DNA from: a virus
Length of the DNA stretch: 32,458 nucleotides
Virus record (IMG/VR): IMGVR_UViG_3300021185_000435
Coordinates: 1-32,458 of that record
Reading direction: 5' to 3' (one strand)
Below, piece after piece: positions 3,384 through 14,341 of the stretch (position 1 is its first letter; every line of letters starts with the position of its first letter). The notes under the pieces were generated by a model that saw nothing but the letters and a program-made list of their open reading frames with translations, did not search any database and had not been told where the DNA came from. The position numbers were made by a program, and so were the translations under genes.

Positions 3384-3399
3384 ATCACGAATTGTTACA
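3378..3399. repeat. Inverted repeat TGTAACA-N8-TGTTACA, operator-like
   Basis: Perfect 7-bp arms are separated by 8 bp. The right arm covers the sigma gene stop codon and the left arm overlaps the -35 of the leftward promoter. There is no run of T after it, so it does not look like an intrinsic terminator. The 16-mer ATCACGAATTGTTACA within it (3384-3399) recurs exactly at 10805-10820. Confidence 0.5.
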
Positions 3400-3976
3400 G
3401 AACTGACTTTCTTAACTTCTTCATAGCAGACGTTTCGTGTCTTGAGACCCACATCTTGCTTTTACCAACGACAGTCGATACATCATCTTGTGTCATATCA
3501 CTAAAGAATCTCATATCAATAACCTCCAATTCTTCTGTCGTTAATTTCTCACGGGCGGTCTTTAGGACATGCTTGGCGAACTCTTTAGTCTCATATCGCT
3601 CGACATGATCCCTACCTGAGCCACCGTACTCCTCATTGTACTGACCAGAGGTAGACGACAAAACAACCTTGAGCCACTTGTGTCCAGACTCAGACATATC
3701 CCCAATCTCATCATCCTCTATGTCTCGTGTAAGCCTTCGTGTGATATTGTGCGCTGGTACTGTAACAGGTAGCACATAAATGTTAAGATAGTCGTGCATA
3801 CGCCTCTTAGCTTCCCTGTAAAGGTGCGCTGGGTGTACCTCCTCTCCCTCATCAGCAAGTATCTCGTAGCACTTTAGTACACCCTCTTGCACCATGTCAT
3901 CACGATGTGAAGGTGCGTTAAATCTGTTGGCTAACTTCTCGCACATACCGACGATCTCAAGCCCAGTTAAGCTCAT
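3395..3976 (-). CDS. Sigma-70-like RNA polymerase factor, 193 aa
   Basis: A small two-domain sigma factor. Residues 13-70 resemble region 2, with DDMVQEGVLKCYE at 27-38 (compare the D-L-x-Q-E-G helix of sigma70) and a following basic helix REAKRRMHDYL. A variable linker (about 71-130) is followed by region 4 (about 140-192) with LTTEELEVIDMRF and a helix-turn-helix MTQDDVSTVVGKSKMWVSRHE, then KKLRKSVL. Region 4 normally reads the -35 element. It would redirect host RNA polymerase to phage promoters; the 29-bp element just downstream and its twin before the terminase are candidates. ECF-like proteins of phages vary greatly, so the specific promoter is inference. The start overlaps the 47-aa gene by 20 bp. 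Confidence 0.72.
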   Translation of the reverse strand: MSLTGLEIVGMCEKLANRFNAPSHRDDMVQEGVLKCYEILADEGEEVHPAHLYREAKRRMHDYLNIYVLPVTVPAHNITRRLTRDIEDDEIGDMSESGHKWLKVVLSSTSGQYNEEYGGSGRDHVERYETKEFAKHVLKTAREKLTTEELEVIDMRFFSDMTQDDVSTVVGKSKMWVSRHETSAMKKLRKSVL

Positions 3977-6868: not shown

Positions 6869-7159
6869 CTAATTGATTCGCTCAGGTGTGTCAACCTTAA
6901 GTGGTGACCCTGACCACGATTTAATCGACATCCAGTCGAATGTAAAGTTAGCTCCAACGTAATCCCATACGGCCCAATACTCTGCGGCCTCTCTAGAGGT
7001 TTCATCCCACGACCACAAACATGGAATACTCTCAATCCTGAACGAGGCTATCTCACCACAGCGATACTGCATCTCAACATCAGCATCGACCATGATGTGT
7101 GTGTAACGATCAAACTTAGCTTCTTCTGCATCTTGGAACAGTCCGTTTACTTTTGCCAT
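6869..7159 (-). CDS. Hypothetical protein, 96 aa
   Basis: Begins MAKVNGLFQDAEEAKFDRYT; rich in aromatics with SFRIESIPCLWSWDETSREAAEYWAVWDYVG. AAAGGAG lies 9 nt before the ATG, which overlaps the previous gene's stop (TGATG). Seen as a folded alpha/beta protein without a recognisable family. Confidence 0.68.
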   Translation of the reverse strand: MAKVNGLFQDAEEAKFDRYTHIMVDADVEMQYRCGEIASFRIESIPCLWSWDETSREAAEYWAVWDYVGANFTFDWMSIKSWSGSPLKVDTPERIN

Positions 7160-7449
7160 CAGCGAATCTCCTTTGCTATATTCTCATACTCTACTAACTC
7201 AAGAAGATCGTCAAGTTTATTGTGAATGTCTCTGAGGCTCTCTTGCACACGATCCATGTCAAACTTAGCATCTGTCAGATATTCAAACAGGCTGTTGATC
7301 TTGTCTTGCTTAGTGACAGAGGTGTCATACTCTGGTGTATGGTTTACGTTGATCCCACGATCAATGTCCATCTTATATTCCCCTGCACGGGCTGACGCTT
7401 CGTGTGCGTCTTGCATGATAGCCTTAAGCTCTGCTAAGATATTTTCCAT
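7159..7449 (-). CDS. Hypothetical coiled-coil-like protein, 96 aa
   Basis: MENILAELKAIMQDAHEASA and FDMDRVQESLRDIHNKLDDL show heptad-like hydrophobic spacing at both ends. AAGGAGAAG precedes the ATG with suitable spacing; a longer reading to 7470 lacks a ribosome binding site. It is translationally coupled to the next gene by a 1-bp overlap. Function unknown. Confidence 0.68.
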   Translation of the reverse strand: MENILAELKAIMQDAHEASARAGEYKMDIDRGINVNHTPEYDTSVTKQDKINSLFEYLTDAKFDMDRVQESLRDIHNKLDDLLELVEYENIAKEIR

Positions 7450-7460
7450 TTTTCTTCTCC

Positions 7461-7835
7461 TTATCCACAATAGTCACAATTTGGTTTATTGCACTTAATT
7501 TCCACTGTAGGGGTATCTGTAAGCCCAGACAGCATTTCTGTCAACCACTGGTCATCATTATTCTTTGGAGGTAGCTTTTGGTAGCTCTCTTCTAGCTCTG
7601 GTTTATACTCCATGCTATCTACACGCATCTTTATATACTTGATAAACTCTACCCAAGTCTCCCTCTCTGGATCACCCTCCCACTCAGCTACCACCAGTGT
7701 CTCTGAGTCATCGTAGAACCAACCCTCTTTCATTACGATGTCTACCATCAAGGGCATACCATAAGCATCTACCTTAACGATCTTAGCCATGCGGCGTTTG
7801 CCCAGTGACTTTTCTATTTTGTTTATGTAGCTCAT
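7461..7835 (-). CDS. Hypothetical protein with C-terminal cysteine cluster, 124 aa
   Basis: Starts MSYINKIEKSLGKRRMAKIV after GGAGGTTCACC, which decides the start (a longer reading goes to 7862). The body is acidic, and the last residues CNKPNCDYCG give C-x4-C-x2-C, a possible metal-binding tail. It is the last gene before the repeat region at 7881-8028. No family recognised. Confidence 0.7.
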   Translation of the reverse strand: MSYINKIEKSLGKRRMAKIVKVDAYGMPLMVDIVMKEGWFYDDSETLVVAEWEGDPERETWVEFIKYIKMRVDSMEYKPELEESYQKLPPKNNDDQWLTEMLSGLTDTPTVEIKCNKPNCDYCG

Positions 7836-7880
7836 GGTGAACCTCCATAGGTTAAACTTCAATTTAGAATCACCTTACAT

Positions 7881-8003
7881 AATTCCCTCGGTGGGGTCAA
7901 CAGAATTATTTCCACTGGTGGGGTGACTCTCATTTTCCACTGGAGGGGTCATTTTCCACTGGAGGGGGGTCACGGTCATTTTCCATCGGTGGGGGGTCAC
8001 GGT
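7881..8003. repeat. Five degenerate direct repeats, iteron-like
   Basis: Five units begin at about 7881, 7908, 7932, 7951 and 7978. Each carries a core like TTTCCACTGGNGGGGTC, often followed by ACGGTC. Units three and four share ATTTTCCACTGGAGGGG exactly, and unit spacing is 19-27 bp. There are no unique spacers, so this is not a CRISPR array. Short tandem units next to a dyad resemble iteron origins or multi-site operators. They lie within the leftward transcript, upstream of the 124-aa gene. Confidence 0.75.
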
Positions 8004-8028
8004 ATACAATGGCATGCAATGGTATACC
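8001..8028. repeat. 28-bp imperfect dyad centred on GCATGC
   Basis: GGTATAC at the left and GTATACC at the right pair exactly around a central GCATGC (8012-8017). It abuts the last of the tandem repeats. It could be a binding site for a dimeric protein or a cruciform at an origin. Confidence 0.6.
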
Positions 8029-8033
8029 CAACC

Positions 8034-8049
8034 TGTAACAATTTGTGAT
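8034..8049. promoter_or_regulatory. TGTAACA-type motif, third copy
   Basis: TGTAACAATTTGTGAT differs at one base from the reverse complement of the 16-mer found at 3384-3399 and 10805-10820. A TTGACT follows immediately (8050-8055) but no convincing -10 is seen. All three copies are in control regions, which suggests an operator. Confidence 0.4.
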
Positions 8050-8200
8050 TTGACTCTCGCGGAAAAATAATGTGCGACAAAAATGCAACTGATTCGCACC
8101 TGCCGTCTCTTCCGTGTTTTGCGACCGCGATTTTGAAAATCTGGCCCTAGTTGGTATATTTTGGGGGGCGTCAATTCCCCCATGTGACGCTATGGAATTT

Positions 8201-8371
8201 TTACCAGTTAAGGGGGAAGTCGTTTCCATCTGGATCAACGGCAAAACCATCTGACCCTATGTCGTCTGGAAATTGAGCTTTCATTTTTGCGAGTAACTCG
8301 CGGCGATTGATTGCCTCAACAAAACCAGTTTCCATTCCATATTCGGATTCAAAGAAGTATTCATATTCCAT
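8201..8371 (-). CDS. Hypothetical protein, 56 aa
   Basis: Reads MEYEYFFESEYGMETGFVEA and ends FAVDPDGNDFPLNW. The frame is open up to 8485, but a good promoter at 8500-8528 would start RNA near 8493. AAGGA lies about 9 nt before the ATG at 8371, so the shorter form is chosen. The leader GAAACGCTGAT-x3-AAAGGA type sequence is shared with rightward genes at 8749, 9047 and 9318. It is the first gene of the leftward transcript. Function unknown. Confidence 0.62.
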   Translation of the reverse strand: MEYEYFFESEYGMETGFVEAINRRELLAKMKAQFPDDIGSDGFAVDPDGNDFPLNW

Positions 8372-8748
8372 TTTTGCCGTCCTTTTTATCAGCGTTTCAG
8401 TGACTCCTTTATGGGATGATTCGCTATACATTACAAGCAAAATGTTTTGCATAGCTACCATGCGCCTAGTGCATAGCTCTTTCAATAGGCATCCCCCATT
8501 TTATACAGCGATTCGGTAATGGAGTCAATAGTGCCTGAAACTCAATATAAGCCCGTTTTAAGCACGTTTTGACTCTCTGGTACTACGACCCAAAAAAGTG
8601 ATTCCCTGTGCTCTGTGCGAGTCAACCCCCCTGTTATGCTATTTGTACATACCCGATATGCAATTTTAGCATGGCTGGGGGTATTGCGAATCGTTTTGGA
8701 ATGGGTTATTTATAGTGTATCGAAACGCTGATCTTGAAAGGATAGCAA
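8372..8748. other. Divergent control region between leftward and rightward transcripts
   Basis: These 377 bases hold the leftward promoter (8500-8528) with its roughly 120-nt leader, several GANTC sites, a widely spaced inverted repeat ATGCTA/TAGCAT (8636-8672), and the start region of the rightward cassette. A TATAGT at 8711-8716 could be a -10 for the rightward genes, but no clear -35 is placed 16-18 bp before it. No gene is seen. Confidence 0.55.
8500..8528 (-). promoter_or_regulatory. Strong sigma70-like promoter, leftward
   Basis: On the minus strand TTGACT (8528-8523), 17 nt, then TATAAA (8505-8500). Both hexamers are near consensus with ideal spacing, so host RNA polymerase should use it early. 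A GANTC site (GACTC) overlaps the -35 and another (GAATC) lies in the spacer. It would drive the 56-aa gene and the leftward array. Confidence 0.72.
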
Positions 8749-8958
8749 ATGGCATACGCTTACACAGTGAAATTCGCGGATGATGGAATCATAGGGGTAT
8801 ATTCAACAATGCTTAAGGCTGAATATGCTGCTACAAGTTGGGTCGTCGATCAATGTTACGACCTGGTGATTGACCAGATTAAGAAAGAGAAAGACTCCCA
8901 GTGGATCTGGTTTACAAATGGCGACCATGCCTATATTGAGCGCTGGACAATCGAGTGA
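8749..8958 (+). CDS. Hypothetical protein, 69 aa
   Basis: MAYAYTVKFADDGIIGVYST leads into a helix with AEYAATSWVVDQCYDLVIDQ and an aromatic tail QWIWFTNGDHAYIERWTIE. GAAAGGA is 7 nt before the ATG and the leader GAAACGCTGAT is shared with the divergent gene at 8371. First gene of the rightward cassette. No family recognised. Confidence 0.65.
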   Translation: MAYAYTVKFADDGIIGVYSTMLKAEYAATSWVVDQCYDLVIDQIKKEKDSQWIWFTNGDHAYIERWTIE

Positions 8959-8971
8959 AGTAATATTGAAA

Positions 8972-8994
8972 CGAGGGGTTGACTTGACCCCTCG
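8972..8994. repeat. Inverted repeat CGAGGGGT-N7-ACCCCTCG over a promoter -35
   Basis: Perfect 8-bp arms with a 7-nt loop. There is no T tract, so it is not a classic terminator. Its loop and right arm overlap the TTGACT of the promoter at 8979-9008, a position suited to an operator, or to a hairpin ending the first gene's mRNA. Confidence 0.55.
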
Positions 8995-9008
8995 AATCAC
9001 CCTATAAA
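8979..9008 (+). promoter_or_regulatory. Sigma70-like promoter, rightward
   Basis: TTGACT (8979-8984), 18 nt, TATAAA (9003-9008), ahead of the gene at 9047. It lies within the rightward cassette, allowing genes from 9047 on to be expressed separately from the gene at 8749. GAATC lies in the spacer. Confidence 0.65.
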
Positions 9009-9046
9009 GATTGCACAAGTTAACACTGACACAAGGGAACGACAAA

Positions 9047-9301
9047 ATGGCATTCGCAATACAAGCTAACATCACAAGAGCACACAAAGAATCTTTGGGG
9101 TTTGAGTATGAAACTCGACTCGTCCGTGGTCGATTCTCTTGGGCGAAAGGTTCAATTGCTTCTTTTACCGATAGCAAGAATCCAGAGCCTAAACTCTTTG
9201 AGTGTGAGGATTCCGTCAATTCCTTCATCAAGGGCTTGCGCAAGGTATCTAAAACGGATAAGCACATTACAGTGATTGATTTCTCAATCGTTAAACACTG
9301 A
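9047..9301 (+). CDS. Hypothetical protein, 84 aa
   Basis: Starts MAFAIQANITRAHKESLGFE; beta-rich pattern ETRLVRGRFSWAKGSIASF and a basic C-terminal strand KHITVIDFSIVKH. AAGGGA precedes the ATG at 9047; an upstream TTG at 9011 would place the start only just after the promoter. Its leader (AACACTGAC-x3-AAGGGA) is nearly the same as that of the next gene. Function unknown. Confidence 0.65.
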   Translation: MAFAIQANITRAHKESLGFEYETRLVRGRFSWAKGSIASFTDSKNPEPKLFECEDSVNSFIKGLRKVSKTDKHITVIDFSIVKH

Positions 9302-9317
9302 TATAAGGGACGACAAA

Positions 9318-9578
9318 ATGACAAACGAACAGACAATCATAAAAAGCCTCGACGACTCAGCAATGGCGCGAGTCTACCATCGCAAACGCAAGGCCGTTAA
9401 CAAGGCCGCGACAATAACCGAAAGACTCGCCTTTGTTCTTGCCAAGTTAACTGGCATTTTATACTTCGGTTTTTTGTGTTTTTGCCTTGGCTATTTCTCG
9501 ACTCTGTATTTTGACGGACTCTTGTTTGAGATACCCGGCCTTGTGTCTTATTGGGTAGACTTTGGGGGTAAACAGTAA
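9318..9578 (+). CDS. Membrane protein, 86 aa
   Basis: A basic N-terminal domain (HRKRKAVNKAATITER, about 21-36) is followed by one hydrophobic segment LTGILYFGFLCFCLGYFSTL (44-63) and a short C-terminal part with PGLVSYWVDFGG. This predicts a single-span inner membrane protein with the basic N-terminus in the cytoplasm. AAGGGACGAC precedes the ATG. The stop overlaps the next start (TAATG). Possible roles include superinfection exclusion or pinholin-like function, but neither is shown. Confidence 0.65.
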   Translation: MTNEQTIIKSLDDSAMARVYHRKRKAVNKAATITERLAFVLAKLTGILYFGFLCFCLGYFSTLYFDGLLFEIPGLVSYWVDFGGKQ

Positions 9579-10198
9579 TGGAAACTCTAATCAAAAACAT
9601 CATTGCCACGCGCCGCAAGGCAACATCAGACGACATCAAGGCCGGAGTCTCATGGTATGCTATAGCGCAGCAGAATTGCCTAGACATTGCCGAGTCGCAT
9701 TGTATGCCTCTTAATATCGTCGTTGGTGTCGTTGCCGCCCTATCGCCTAACAACAAATGGACTCGCAACATTATTAACGCCACTGACCTCATAGGCGCTT
9801 TCATGAATGGTGACACCATTGAGTCGGTAAAGGTGTCCACCTATAACGCGATGAAACAAAAAGCTTGGGGTATCCTTGAGGCTATGCCAGAAGACAACGA
9901 ATCCATCATGCTCATGTTGAATGGACAGAAAATCATTGCCTTCTTTGAGTGCATCATGGACCTAGACTCTTGCTGCATCGACGGTCACGCCAGAAATATC
10001 GCATATAATGAGCGCATAGGCTTGACAGATGATAGGACCAACATTGGCAAGCGTGAATATAAAGAGCTTGTGCAAGCCTATGTGGCGGCCTCTAAGCGAT
10101 GCTCTATCGTGGACAATGGCAAGCGCCGCAATCTAAAGCCATACGAGTTGCAGGCTATAACGTGGACCGTGTGGCGTAAACAGTGGGGGATTGTATAA
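9578..10198 (+). CDS. Phage protein with LSP-NNKW and DGHA motifs, possibly HhH-glycosylase-like, 206 aa
   Basis: Helical protein of 206 residues. VVAALSPNNKWTRNI (about 51-65) and CCIDGHARNIAY (about 131-142) are its notable motifs. Together with a late YELQAITWTVWR they recall an uncharacterised phage family ('vaaLSP...W..N', 'vDgHa') that I associate loosely with helix-hairpin-helix DNA glycosylase-like folds. That link is from memory and weak: a catalytic Asp and a clear HhH GPG hairpin are not visible. The gene is translationally coupled on both sides (TAATG). It is the largest gene of the rightward cassette and carries several GANTC sites. A DNA-directed role, such as base excision or counter-defence, is conceivable. 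Confidence 0.55.
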   Translation: METLIKNIIATRRKATSDDIKAGVSWYAIAQQNCLDIAESHCMPLNIVVGVVAALSPNNKWTRNIINATDLIGAFMNGDTIESVKVSTYNAMKQKAWGILEAMPEDNESIMLMLNGQKIIAFFECIMDLDSCCIDGHARNIAYNERIGLTDDRTNIGKREYKELVQAYVAASKRCSIVDNGKRRNLKPYELQAITWTVWRKQWGIV

Positions 10199-10407
10199 TG
10201 AGACGACTAGAGATTGAATACAGGACTCTTGTGTTCCGCAAGGACTCTGACAAGTGGCATTGTTTCCACGCCTATCCTTGTCAGTATGCTTGCCTCGACC
10301 ACGCAGCAGAGTTGACCATCGACAAGCCGCACCTAGATTTTATTCCTGTTATGTGGCGCTTTGATGCTAACACTTACTCTTGTCTAACTGGCGATGACCC
10401 CGACTAG
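10198..10407 (+). CDS. Hypothetical protein, 69 aa
   Basis: Starts MRRLEIEYRTLVFRKDSDKW, coupled by TAATG to the previous gene. It has four cysteines and several histidines (WHCFHAYPCQYACLDHAAEL), which might bind metal. It is the last gene before the terminator at 10439-10460. Function unknown. Confidence 0.6.
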   Translation: MRRLEIEYRTLVFRKDSDKWHCFHAYPCQYACLDHAAELTIDKPHLDFIPVMWRFDANTYSCLTGDDPD

Positions 10408-10438
10408 ATTCCATAGTGACTCCCACGCTATGACATTG

Positions 10439-10460
10439 ACTCCGCTTAGGCGGGGTTTTT
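10439..10460 (+). terminator. Intrinsic terminator of the rightward cassette
   Basis: ACTCCGC, loop TTAG, then GCGGGGT form a 7-bp stem with one G-T pair, followed directly by TTTTT. It lies 31 nt after the last cassette gene and should separate the cassette from the late region. Confidence 0.8.
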
Positions 10461-10596
10461 GTCGTTGTGTCAATCGTTTAACCCATGGAATTGAACGGGC
10501 GTTCAGTTAATGGGGCGCAGTTTCAGACTGGCGAATCACATGGGGGAAGTGGGCGAATCGCCTATCCTCTGTCAAGTTTTTTCTTGTGTCAACTCA

Positions 10597-10645
10597 CGTT
10601 TTGTTACAGTTTTGCACGTTTTTGTAACATTAGTAACATTTTCGC
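10597..10645. promoter_or_regulatory. Cluster of TGTTACA/TGTAACA motifs
   Basis: TGTTACA is followed 15 bp later by TGTAACA as an inverted pair, and then by AGTAACA as a direct repeat. These are the same heptamers seen at 3378-3399. TTGTTA with 18 nt to TAACAT could also be a weak promoter. The cluster lies upstream of the late region and looks like a multi-site operator. Confidence 0.4.
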
Positions 10646-10698
10646 TTGGGACCCTTGACATTACGAGCGAATCATGCTTGGTGGGGCGTTAACCACAC

Positions 10699-10911
10699 AT
10701 GAATCCAAAACCAAAAATTACTTTTGCCCTGCCCACCACGTTCAAACGGGCGTCATATCTGAAGTACCCACGAAGGTATATATCGGCGAAAATCCGCTTA
10801 CGTTATCACGAATTGTTACAAAACGGTAATATTACTCACGAAAACACGACAAAAACTAGAAAATACTTTCGTTGTAAAACAACCGATTGTAAAATAGTTG
10901 ACAAAAAGTAA
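10699..10911 (+). CDS. Possible small basic protein, 70 aa
   Basis: An open frame starting MNPKPKITFALPTTFKRASY and ending CKIVDKK. It is very basic, with two cysteines near the end (FRCKTTDCK). The only ribosome binding candidate is GGTGGGG about 12 nt upstream. It lies in AT-rich control DNA and contains the operator-like 16-mer, so it may be a chance frame. Confidence 0.3.
   Translation: MNPKPKITFALPTTFKRASYLKYPRRYISAKIRLRYHELLQNGNITHENTTKTRKYFRCKTTDCKIVDKK
10805..10820. promoter_or_regulatory. Operator-like 16-mer, second copy
   Basis: ATCACGAATTGTTACA is identical to 3384-3399 and close to the reverse complement of 8034-8049. It is followed by GGTAATATTACT, itself a short palindrome. 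It lies about 115 bp before the late promoter element. Confidence 0.4.
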
Positions 10912-10920
10912 AAAAAGTGT

Positions 10921-10949
10921 GTTACAAAATCAAAAATATATCCCTATAG
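10921..10949 (+). promoter_or_regulatory. Putative late promoter P2 before the terminase genes
   Basis: GTTACA, 17 nt, CTATAG, with core ATATATCCCTATAG. It matches the leftward element at 3355-3383 at 25 of 29 positions. It is the only promoter-like element seen ahead of the structural genes and is oriented toward them. The recognising polymerase could be host RNA polymerase with the phage sigma-like factor, or a T7-type enzyme encoded elsewhere. Confidence 0.62.
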
Positions 10950-10967
10950 TAATATGAGAGAGAGAGT

Positions 10968-11164
10968 AACTTAAGTTTTAACGTAAATTATTACCACTAC
11001 GATTTATACTACTAAGCTATATAACGTAAGTCATAACTATAGTTACTCCCCTCAAGAACCACTCCTACAAGTTAAACCAAGAAGTATGAAATCATAGTAT
11101 AACTTAAGTTACAAAGTTCTTGCCGATTGACCGTAGGTAGTGGTATCGACTACCCACTTAAGTT
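10968..11164. repeat. Three AACTTAAGTT palindromes in the late leader
   Basis: Full copies lie at 10968-10977 and 11101-11110, and a nine-base copy (ACTTAAGTT) at 11156-11164. All three are followed or preceded by TA-rich flanks (GTAAC or TTAC). They may bind a dimeric regulator or be chance in AT-rich DNA. Confidence 0.4.
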
Positions 11165-11210
11165 ACCCTAATCTTGTCGTTATTAGCCCGTAGGGGCGGA
11201 GACTATCGTT

Positions 11211-11639
11211 ATGATCGCAGCACTACCCTACAGTAAATTAGTAGAGAAGCACATCTTGGAATGTATCCAAGGTGGCATAGGTATTCGTCAGATGATTGCC
11301 TCAATGCAACACCTACAGGATGCCCCAAAGTCTTTATCTACTATGTACAAAATCTATGGGTCGTTCATTGAGATGGAACGAGCAAAGATCAATGGTGCTG
11401 TCGGTAAGAGGGTTATAGACCAAGCCTTAGATGGTGACTTCAAATCACAAGAGTTGTTCCTACGATCTAAGGGTGGCTGGAGTCCAACACAGACTAACAT
11501 TGAAGTTGAGCAAGAGACTGACCCTGAACTAGACGAAAGTGCTACTGCTACACTTATGTCGTTACTTGGATACAACACAGATGCCCCCGAAGAAGAAACA
11601 ACCTGTACCTGCGAGAAGGATAACTGCCGATGCTCTTAG
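11211..11639 (+). CDS. Small terminase subunit (probable)
   Basis: This 142-residue protein has an N-terminal helical region that could hold a DNA-binding helix-turn-helix (about 8-50: LVEKHILECIQGGIGIRQMI). A middle segment GKRVIDQALDGDFKSQELFLRSKGGWSPTQ (about 65-94) is typical of small terminase C-terminal halves ('..lf.lK..GGW......'). An acidic tail ends in CTCEKDNCRCS, a cysteine cluster not usual for the family. It should recognise the packaging site and hand DNA to the large subunit, whose gene overlaps it by 59 bp. Position directly before the large terminase supports the call. Confidence 0.75.
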   Translation: MIAALPYSKLVEKHILECIQGGIGIRQMIASMQHLQDAPKSLSTMYKIYGSFIEMERAKINGAVGKRVIDQALDGDFKSQELFLRSKGGWSPTQTNIEVEQETDPELDESATATLMSLLGYNTDAPEEETTCTCEKDNCRCS

Positions 11640-12987
11640 GGGATTACCTCAGAGTAAAGTTAAGGACATCTTCGATCAACTAGGGCCACTCAAGACTGAG
11701 GAACTTAAGCATGACTGGATGTTTTGGGCGAGGGATAATCAGCTTGAGCCTAATGATCCCGATTGGAATGTTTGGTTTATTAATGCAGGTCGTGGATTTG
11801 GTAAGACTCGTTCTGGTGTAGAGTGGGTACGAGAGAATGTTAAACGTGGTGTCAAGCGTATAGCTGCTGTAGCTTCTACTAACTCAGATATCGAACGAGT
11901 TATGGTCAAGGGTGAATCTGGTTTCCTATCGGTATGCTGGAAGAACGATAGAACCTACAAGGGTAAGAATATGGGGTTCCCTGAGTGGTCTCCAACTAAG
12001 CGTACACTTACATGGGAGAATGGAGCGCAAGTACAATTCTTCTCCGCTGAGGAACCTGAGCGTCTCCGTGGCCCACAGTTTGAGTTAGCATGGTGTGATG
12101 AGACCGCTGCTTGGAACAAGGACATGGACACTTGGCAGATGCTACAGTTTTGTATGCGTCTGGGTAGACACCCAAGGATTATGGTTACGACTACCCCTAA
12201 GCCAACTAAACTTATTCGTCAGATACTCAAAGACCCTAAGACTGTAGTTACCTCTGGTAGTACCTTTGATAACTCAGCCAACCTAGCTACAACATACCTC
12301 GCTGCTGTTAAAGAGCAGTACGAAGGGACTAGGCTAGGTAGACAAGAGCTTTATGCTGAAGTCCTAGAAGAAGCTCAAGGAGCCTTGTGGACTACAGTTA
12401 TGCTAGATGACTGTTCAGTTAAGCATGAGGCAGTCCCAGACCTTTCCCGTATTGTCGTTGCACTTGACCCCGCTGTTACCTCTAACGCTGAGAGTGACAT
12501 GACGGGTATTATTGTCGCAGGTATTGACATTAACGGTATTGCCTATGTCCTCGGAGATTATACCGATAGGTTATCACCACAGGGTTGGGCATCTAAAGCT
12601 ATTCAACTGTATCACCAATATGAAGCTGACCGTATTGTAGCGGAAGTTAACCAAGGTGGTGATATGGTCAAACAGACTATTCACGGAGAAGACCCTAGTG
12701 TGCCATACAAAGCTGTTAGAGCTTCTCGTGGTAAGTTCGCTAGGGCTGAACCTGTATCAGCACTATATGAACGTGGGTTGGTAAAGCATGTAGCTAATCC
12801 CCCTGATGGTGCTTCGTTAAACGAATTAGAAACGCAAATGAGAACATGGGAACCACTAGGGTCGATTGGCTCCCCAGATAGACTTGATGCCTGTGTATGG
12901 GCAATTACAGACCTCTCACTTAACGGATATGCGAAACCCAAACTGACCCTCGCTTACTCAAGTGCTAAGGGACTTTCACAGAAATAA
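11581..12987 (+). CDS. Large terminase subunit (ATPase/nuclease)
   Basis: The 468-residue packaging motor. Walker A is GRGFGKT (70-76), Walker B ELAWCDE (168-174) with E174 as the catalytic Glu, and the coupling motif is MVTTTP (201-206). The RNase H-like nuclease domain has ALDPAV (D296), AEVNQGGD (E355) and SPDRLDA (D433, D436), the expected acidic set. It resembles the terminase type of gene transfer agents and HK97-like siphophages. The ATG at 11581 is chosen; the frame is open upstream to a GTG at 11539 inside the small subunit gene. No strong Shine-Dalgarno precedes either, consistent with translational coupling. It cleaves concatemers and pumps DNA into the prohead through the portal encoded next. 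Confidence 0.95.
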   Translation: MPPKKKQPVPARRITADALRGLPQSKVKDIFDQLGPLKTEELKHDWMFWARDNQLEPNDPDWNVWFINAGRGFGKTRSGVEWVRENVKRGVKRIAAVASTNSDIERVMVKGESGFLSVCWKNDRTYKGKNMGFPEWSPTKRTLTWENGAQVQFFSAEEPERLRGPQFELAWCDETAAWNKDMDTWQMLQFCMRLGRHPRIMVTTTPKPTKLIRQILKDPKTVVTSGSTFDNSANLATTYLAAVKEQYEGTRLGRQELYAEVLEEAQGALWTTVMLDDCSVKHEAVPDLSRIVVALDPAVTSNAESDMTGIIVAGIDINGIAYVLGDYTDRLSPQGWASKAIQLYHQYEADRIVAEVNQGGDMVKQTIHGEDPSVPYKAVRASRGKFARAEPVSALYERGLVKHVANPPDGASLNELETQMRTWEPLGSIGSPDRLDACVWAITDLSLNGYAKPKLTLAYSSAKGLSQK

Positions 12988-13003
12988 TAATGGAACCTAT
13001 CTC

Positions 13004-14341
13004 ATGGTTAAGAAGCTCTCAGAATCCAAAGCTAAATCTACTCTTGGTATAGCTGGTGATAACACACACAACGGTCAAATCCGTGCTGATGAGTTTCTCC
13101 CTGAACTGCGTGGCAAGAAAGCCATTCGCAAGTATCGTGAGATGCGTGACAATGATAGTACCGTTGGTGCTGTTATGTATTCTGTTGAGCAAATCCTCCG
13201 TGATGTTGACTTGCACGTTAACCCAGTTGACGAAAGTGATGCAGCTAAAGCGGAAGCTGACTTCGTTAAGAGCGTTCTTGATGACATGGATCATACACTA
13301 GATGACCACATTGCTGAAGCCTTGTCGTTTCTGTCGTATGGCTTTGGTTGGTTCGAGGTTATCTATAAGAGACGTGTTGGCCCTAACGAGCGTTCTGACA
13401 AGAAACACTCTAAATATACAGACGGACGTATTGGTGTACGCAAGATTGCTGCCCGTGCGCCTTGGACTATAAATAAGTTTGACGTAGATCAAAAGACTGG
13501 TGATGTTCTAGGTATTGAGCAATCAGTCGGACTTATGGCAAGTAAGAACTATATCCCACTTAATAAGTCCTTGTATTACCGCACTACCTCAATAAATGGT
13601 GATCCAAGTGGCCGTTCTATCCTTCGTAACGCTTATACTTCTTACGAGTATCTTAATAATCTACAGTCAATTGAAGCTATTGCAGTGGAGCGTGAGCTTG
13701 CTGGTATTCCTGTTGCCCGTATTCCTGCTGAATATCTTTCTGGCGATGCTTCTGTGGCACAATCAGGCTTCGTCAACAACTTGCAGCAAATCCTACGAGA
13801 CGTTAAGTTCAACGAGCAAGGTTACATTATACTGCCATCCGATACCTACCCCGATAAAGACGGAGCGCCTTCCTCTACTAGATTAGTTGACATTGAGCTT
13901 ATGGCATCCAATGGTAAACGCAACATTGACATCAATCCAATCGTTAGTCGTTACCAGCATGACATTGCTCGTTCTGTACTTTCTGAGTTTCTTCTTCTTG
14001 GTTCCTCTGGGGGTTCTTATGCCCTCTCCAAGTCGAAGACAGACCTGTTCCTCCGTGCGCTTGAGAGTTACATCCAAGCAATCGTTGATGTTCTCAACAA
14101 ACAGTTGGTCGAGCGTCTTTGGCAGTTGAACGGTCTGAATTATGATCTGATGCCAACTATCGAAGCTGGCGATGTTGCTCCACATGACTTGCGCGAAGTT
14201 GCTGCGTTCTTGCGTAACCTCAATGGCGCTAACATTGATGTGTCCTCTCACCCAGAGGTTGTTAAAGACCTTATGGACATAGCTGACTTGGAGTATGACC
14301 CTGAAGTTGGTCGTTCTACCACAGATGAGGAAGAAGTATAA
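13004..14341 (+). CDS. Portal protein
   Basis: This 445-residue protein follows the large terminase by 16 nt, the usual portal position. GKKAIRKYREMRDNDSTVGAV near the N-terminus and the long DDHIAEALSFLSYGFGWFEVIY segment match the Mu gp29/DUF935-like portal group ('yreM..d..i.a.l......i'; 'a..yGfs..E..w'). SSGGSYALSKSKTDLF (C-terminal third) matches the region before the final helices. Twelve copies would form the DNA entry ring at one capsid vertex. The ATG at 13004 follows TGGAACC; a GTG at 12962 is rejected because it lies inside the terminase gene without a ribosome binding site. Confidence 0.86.
   Translation: MVKKLSESKAKSTLGIAGDNTHNGQIRADEFLPELRGKKAIRKYREMRDNDSTVGAVMYSVEQILRDVDLHVNPVDESDAAKAEADFVKSVLDDMDHTLDDHIAEALSFLSYGFGWFEVIYKRRVGPNERSDKKHSKYTDGRIGVRKIAARAPWTINKFDVDQKTGDVLGIEQSVGLMASKNYIPLNKSLYYRTTSINGDPSGRSILRNAYTSYEYLNNLQSIEAIAVERELAGIPVARIPAEYLSGDASVAQSGFVNNLQQILRDVKFNEQGYIILPSDTYPDKDGAPSSTRLVDIELMASNGKRNIDINPIVSRYQHDIARSVLSEFLLLGSSGGSYALSKSKTDLFLRALESYIQAIVDVLNKQLVERLWQLNGLNYDLMPTIEAGDVAPHDLREVAAFLRNLNGANIDVSSHPEVVKDLMDIADLEYDPEVGRSTTDEEEV

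Follow-up and report, generated by a model that had tools for sequence, protein, structure and literature searches.

The pac site of phage P1 carries a cluster of Dam sites in the region that is cut, and P1 makes its own methylase. In alphaproteobacteria, GANTC is methylated by CcrM, an enzyme conserved in most Alphaproteobacteria (PMC3973325), and methylated GANTC is preferred by GcrA (PMC3667746). Caulobacter transcription start sites with GANTC between the -35 and -10 elements form a distinct cell-cycle-regulated class (PMC4287350), and GANTC is enriched near alphaproteobacterial origins (PMC9836097) and in repABC modules (PMC11514494, PMC6090056). The depletion of GANTC described for pelagiphages in the accessible part of one study (PMC9516812) is genome-wide, and we likewise found avoidance outside of the region described below; an island of GANTC sites does not appear in that part of the study nor in two pelagiphages that we scanned, and no prior report of such an island in phages was found in the open-licence articles searched.

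The window analysed here is a virus record of 32,458 bases that encodes a primase-helicase, a sigma factor, a thymidylate synthase, and an endolysin on its minus strand and TerL, portal, capsid, tape measure, and tail fibre genes on its plus strand. Among cultured phages, it is most closely related to Roseobacter phage CRP-6 (TerL identity of 65%), which was isolated on Rhodobacteraceae strain FZCC0042 (PMC6918029) and has a genome of 45 kb, so that the window is probably a fragment. Judging from this relationship, the host is very likely an alphaproteobacterium; the hosts of relatives other than CRP-6 are assumed. No DNA similarity to deposited phages was found for positions 7000 to 12000 of the window.

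The initial annotation had counted 39 GANTC sites in 8041-10710 as compared to 2 in 1-2670 and 4 in 11211-13880, and exact counting returned the same three numbers, though the island is better delimited as 7867-10705 with 41 of the 79 sites of the whole window. Relative to a first-order Markov expectation of 3.9/kb, GANTC is ca. 3.7-fold more frequent in the island (ca. 14/kb) and ca. 3-fold less frequent in the remainder (ca. 1.3/kb). Among the thousands of words tested (all 4- to 6-mers and gapped words), it shows the strongest contrast between inside and outside, with 39 sites inside versus 37 in an 11 times longer outside stretch (binomial p of ca. 1e-21). The island enrichment is carried by codon choice: Island genes contain 23 GANTC where synonymous shuffling predicts 14.4, and 21 versus 10.4 +/- 2.0 under a model of late-gene codon usage (0 of 3000 draws reached 21), while genes outside of the island contain 37 versus 73 expected. 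The enrichment hence does not vanish after codon correction but appears as an excess inside and a deficit outside. It extends beyond promoters, with densities of 12.5/kb in coding and 14.9/kb in non-coding parts of the island, and neither fixed spacing nor helical phasing of the island sites was found. A-runs and some other words also differ between the island and the rest.

We detected the same pattern in relatives by using the gene of the large terminase subunit (TerL; 11539-12987, plus strand) as comparison anchor, which in the window follows a putative small terminase subunit gene (11211-11639, plus strand) assigned by position only and with no family match. CRP-6 has 38 GANTC in 2.65 kb at the same place 5' of its terminase genes, and an initial set of loci, each with 0.8 kb or more of sequence ahead of the terminase, shows without exception 4-15 GANTC/kb upstream and at most 1.6/kb downstream; the downstream figure for locus L001, 3.0/kb in 0.7 kb, is the window's own island stretch. 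A wider set from a profile search reached down to a TerL identity of ca. 60%, and an island is present in 63 of its 73 scored loci (median of 10.4/kb versus 0.75/kb downstream), the other 10 belonging mostly to one subclade with weaker avoidance. Across these 73 loci, which are homologous and thus not independent of one another, island strength correlates negatively with GANTC density outside (Spearman -0.38). The mean density over 23 loci has two peaks, at both control regions, and drops steeply at the terminase. The pattern reported in the initial annotation is thus kept in relatives, and selection favours GANTC within one delimited region and acts against it in the rest of the genome.

Positive selection for the island depends on its position rather than on one gene. 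The main gene of the slot differs among relatives (GENE-INDEPENDENCE) and is either DUF7178, GP88 (PF17338), DUF7227-like, or an unrelated gene, which in locus L022 encodes 478 aa on the opposite (minus) strand and contains 26 GANTC versus 12.4 under synonymous shuffling. The corresponding values for CRP-6 gp68 are 16 versus 6.4, and slot genes mostly exceed their codon-shuffle expectation, with DUF7178 alone non-significant in this conservative test. Conversely, GP88-type genes carry 13.46 GANTC/kb inside islands versus 0.32/kb in other alphaproteobacterial phages, and DUF7178 genes 6.27/kb inside versus 1.38/kb outside of islands. Selection therefore acts on the DNA of this position irrespective of its resident genes. 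At the level of single sites, aligned GANTC are retained more than anagram control words in all bins of at least 65% identity (0.74 versus 0.46 at 75-80%), and conservation within sites is 0.88-0.92 for G, A, T, and C and lowest for N (0.85). Purifying selection retains individual sites and constrains their central N least, while the overall set turns over. The preferred flank is C..G, and CGANTCG occurs 79 times in islands (8-fold above expectation) versus 0 times in downstream regions. Avoidance outside follows the same flank order, with observed/expected ratios of 0 for sites with both preferred flanks, 0.11 with one, and 0.22 with none, suggesting that one agent or reader probably drives both enrichment and avoidance.

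The left edge of the island, 5' of a leftward operon, is formed by an iteron-like array found by repeat search (7883-8000, plus strand; five copies of TTTTCCACTGGAGGGG(G)TCA), which has counterparts of 4-6 copies in the corresponding position of most relatives whose upstream sequence is long enough and might represent an operator or origin iterons. It is followed by short GTATAC/GCATGC repeats with AATG spacers (8003-8030), of which relative L035 has a longer array. Next come a small ORF of 94 aa with a mechanical TTG start and no family match (8201-8485, minus strand) and a sigma70-like leftward promoter of the form TTGACT-17-TATAAA (8500-8528, minus strand) with one GANTC on its -35 element and one in the spacer, identical in sequence in L027. 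The minima of cumulative GC (8653) and AT (8717) skew, which lie inside or adjoining the island in both the window and relative G001, mark 8653-8717 as a candidate replication origin or transcription divide. Rightward, all on the plus strand, follow a small ORF of 69 aa with a weak DUF7336 match below cut-off (8749-8958), a sigma70-like TTGACT-18-TATAAA promoter with GAATC in its spacer (8979-9008), a small ORF with 5 GANTC (9047-9301; ATG start within the mechanical ORF 9011-9301), and another with one apparent membrane segment (9318-9578; 5 GANTC versus 1.2-1.3 expected) whose family is present in 19 islands. The DUF7178 gene (9578-10198; PF23802, phrog_3842) that is swapped in relatives precedes a small ORF at 10198-10407 (mechanical start at 10183) and a TTGAC-N9-GAATC element with a -35 and a spacer GANTC, without a clear -10 (10655-10673), 5' of a last small ORF of 70 aa (10699-10911) with homologues of at least 89% identity in 5 islands. 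An AT-rich, GANTC-poor stretch with ACTTAAGTTA-type repeats (10912-11210) forms the right boundary between island and terminase. An Rfam search gave no match.

Islands hold sigma70-like promoter matches at 3-5 times the downstream density, and the form TTGAC-N9-GANTC-TATAA is shared by several of their promoters. A TTGAC 14 bp 5' of GANTC is found in 25 cases versus a background of 4.4, a peak that comes from related loci. The layout of CcrM/GcrA-type promoters, sigma70-like with GANTC between -35 and -10 and known from a CcrM-bearing host group (PMC4287350, PMC3667746), is present at both 8500-8528 and 8979-9008. While known cases have 1-3 sites per promoter, we find ca. 40 sites over 3 kb including coding sequence, and in a phage. 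The initial annotation was right to place an overlap of GANTC with a TTGACTC -35 hexamer at the strongest promoter (8500-8528), but TTGACTC is no commoner in islands than the excess of TTGAC predicts and a general TTGACTC enrichment was discarded. Its proposal of methylation-controlled promoters agrees with the alphaproteobacterial host suggested by CRP-6 and with the TTGAC-N9-GANTC-TATAA promoters, yet sites at promoters are a minority.

The virus probably uses a DNA methylation mark of its host as a switch or docking platform. More specifically, a plausible if still tentative reading of these sequence features is that the island serves as a cis-acting platform for the CcrM mark of the host, extending across the region of early control and the probable origin. 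Against this platform, the promoter form accounts for few of the ca. 40 sites, known GcrA promoters do not explain a need for sites in coding regions, and the origin call is weak because the skew switch coincides with divergent transcription and the iterons are possibly operators. As reader and mechanism, we infer the following. The mark would be N6-methyladenine in GANTC, and its writer would be host CcrM because an N6_N4-type methylase (PF01555, the only methylase family searched) was absent from the 13 phage records tested. The most likely reader would be GcrA together with sigma70 RNA polymerase, so that the methylated tract would draw the polymerase of the host towards the divergent early promoters. 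If passive replication outpaced CcrM, the tract would then be left hemi- or unmethylated, and this loss of the mark would alter early transcription or origin use as a replication-state clock, as proposed for repABC modules, with the absence of sites elsewhere confining the signal to one place. It is possible, though doubtful, that the methylation state of the dense tract acts for the phage as both a replication-linked clock and a polymerase antenna: Methylated incoming DNA would recruit GcrA-RNA polymerase to the early region, replication faster than CcrM would strip the mark and shut down this region or change origin use, and selection for the mark would extend into the codons of resident genes. 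If the platform reading is true, a viral DNA region would be defined by a host epigenetic mark rather than by genes, and, throughout a phage group that is abundant in the sea, selection would preserve this mark inside coding sequence. The idea that phages time their infection by reading host methylation becomes testable, and a cultured pair for such a test exists in CRP-6 on FZCC0042.

Alternatively, GANTC density might control initiation or re-initiation at a phage replication origin with promoters being secondary, which we consider rather unlikely. The skew minima that the window and G001 show within or beside the island, the 4-6 iterons at the left edge in most relatives, and the enrichment of GANTC described for the origins of alphaproteobacteria (PMC9836097) as well as for repABC modules (PMC11514494, PMC6090056), where repeats and a skew minimum likewise lie nearby, are in line with such an element. 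However, divergent transcription alone can explain the skew, the iterons lie directly 5' of the leftward operon and are possibly operators, and a typical origin has only a tenth of the island's length. No initiator was found in it, with neither matches to RepABC-type genes (repA/repB/repC) among the island proteins scanned nor a Rep-like protein in the island. The phage island differs from repABC modules by lacking a RepABC-type match, by the GANTC depletion in the rest of the replicon, and by its 39 sites in 2.7 kb versus ca. 9 in one module.

An unlikely role of the island is that of a decoy that soaks up CcrM or GcrA and stalls the host cell cycle; a methylase decoy was also among the options of the initial annotation. 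At around 100 phage copies, the ca. 40 sites per genome would be on a par with the sites of the host itself, the density is several-fold above that of GcrA-bound Caulobacter regions (1.78 per kb; PMC3667746), and phage phiCbK encodes a GcrA homologue, indicating that phages target this circuit (PMC7987155). Titration, though, would work without clustering, a fixed position, or avoidance outside, and these three features are all seen in most relatives; a decoy leaves unexplained why the sites form a single block and are rare in the remaining genome.

We regard it as improbable that the island marks DNA for packaging in the manner of the Dam sites in the P1 pac region. As in P1, a cluster of methylase sites lies near phage packaging genes, with the island ending ca. 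0.45 kb 5' of the small terminase gene. Unlike in P1, the terminase region is free of sites and an N6_N4 methylase was not found in the 13 phage records tested; in 250-bp bins across 23 relatives, the density at the terminase start is only 2.8 and then 0.5 GANTC/kb. A physical genome end at the island was rejected because contig ends do not pile up sharply in this region, though assemblies frequently break there.

Still less credible is a link to restriction, with a HinfI-type enzyme or a past defence driving avoidance and the island being exempt (e.g., as the first DNA to enter or because it is covered by protein). Avoidance of GANTC is indeed general in alphaproteobacterial phages and reported for pelagiphages (PMC9516812); in 18 other such phages (2 pelagiphages and 16 others, among them CRP-7, which infects the host strain of CRP-6), GANTC reaches 0.00-0.73 of expectation and no comparable island was found. 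But the frequency below expectation that characterizes avoided restriction sites is seen only outside of the island and reversed inside. Exemption would yield random density at most instead of the 3-4 times random observed, the sites inside are conserved by selection, a single cut site is enough to kill, and homologous early genes at the genome ends of other phages contain no GANTC. The island helps to separate two proposed causes of GANTC avoidance in alphaproteobacterial phages, since restriction predicts no island while interference by host methylation readers permits one.

Acquisition of a cassette from a GANTC-rich source, recent acquisition from a source without GANTC avoidance, as raised in the initial annotation, or an artefact of composition can practically be dismissed: Despite the differences in A-runs and some other words, the island stays put down to ca. 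60% TerL identity in diverged relatives with different genes and outlives gene replacement by unrelated genes, its enrichment is synonymous, the same gene families are GANTC-poor elsewhere, 3-4-fold over random is not explained by a mere absence of avoidance, and, unlike at the phiCbK cluster, tRNA genes are absent in 12 records.

The only GANTC cluster visible among the other phages scanned is the tRNA array of phiCbK, and a tRNA array was considered as a source of GANTC because the T-loops of phiCbK tRNAs make such clusters. This was rejected given 0 tRNA genes in the window, CRP-6, and ten relatives and no enrichment of TTCGANTC. A host search among genome contigs returned one contig of 5 kb in a Flavobacteriaceae MAG, unconvincing as a host link, that carries 10 GANTC within 1.3 kb of its start, 5' of its terminase.

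The left edge of the GANTC island carries an iteron-like array in the window (7883-8000), as it does in Roseobacter phage CRP-6 (locus L099, 44520-44878) and in the related phage locus L035 (6190-6536). CRP-6 additionally has a second array with the unit ATGTCACGTTGCA, and L035 an additional array of the 10-bp GTATACGATG. Within the island (8041-10710), AAAA and CCCC are likewise ca. 3-fold denser than in the remaining genome. The AT-rich stretch directly 5' of the terminase genes (window 10967-11170) contains repeated ACTTAAGTTA boxes that are common to the window and L035 and that are possible sites for the terminase or a regulator. The window also encodes a sigma factor of its own on the minus strand (3395-3976; phrog_351, phrog_1740), which may target late promoters.

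GP88-type genes, one of the exchangeable kinds found in the island slot of relatives, occupy the very first position in several marine podovirus records, i.e., CRP-2, CRP-4, HTVC024P, HTVC115P, and HMO-2011 (loci L100, L101, L103, L104, and L110), where they are nearly devoid of GANTC, the reverse of the island. GANTC avoidance is almost complete in RDJL Phi 1 (NC_015466, 62.7 kb; loci L173-L176), with a single site present for 353 expected. In phiCbK (NC_019405, locus L187), a GANTC cluster at 50.2-52.7 kb coincides with the tRNA array; the T-loops of tRNAs (TTCGANTC) are a trivial origin of GANTC clusters.
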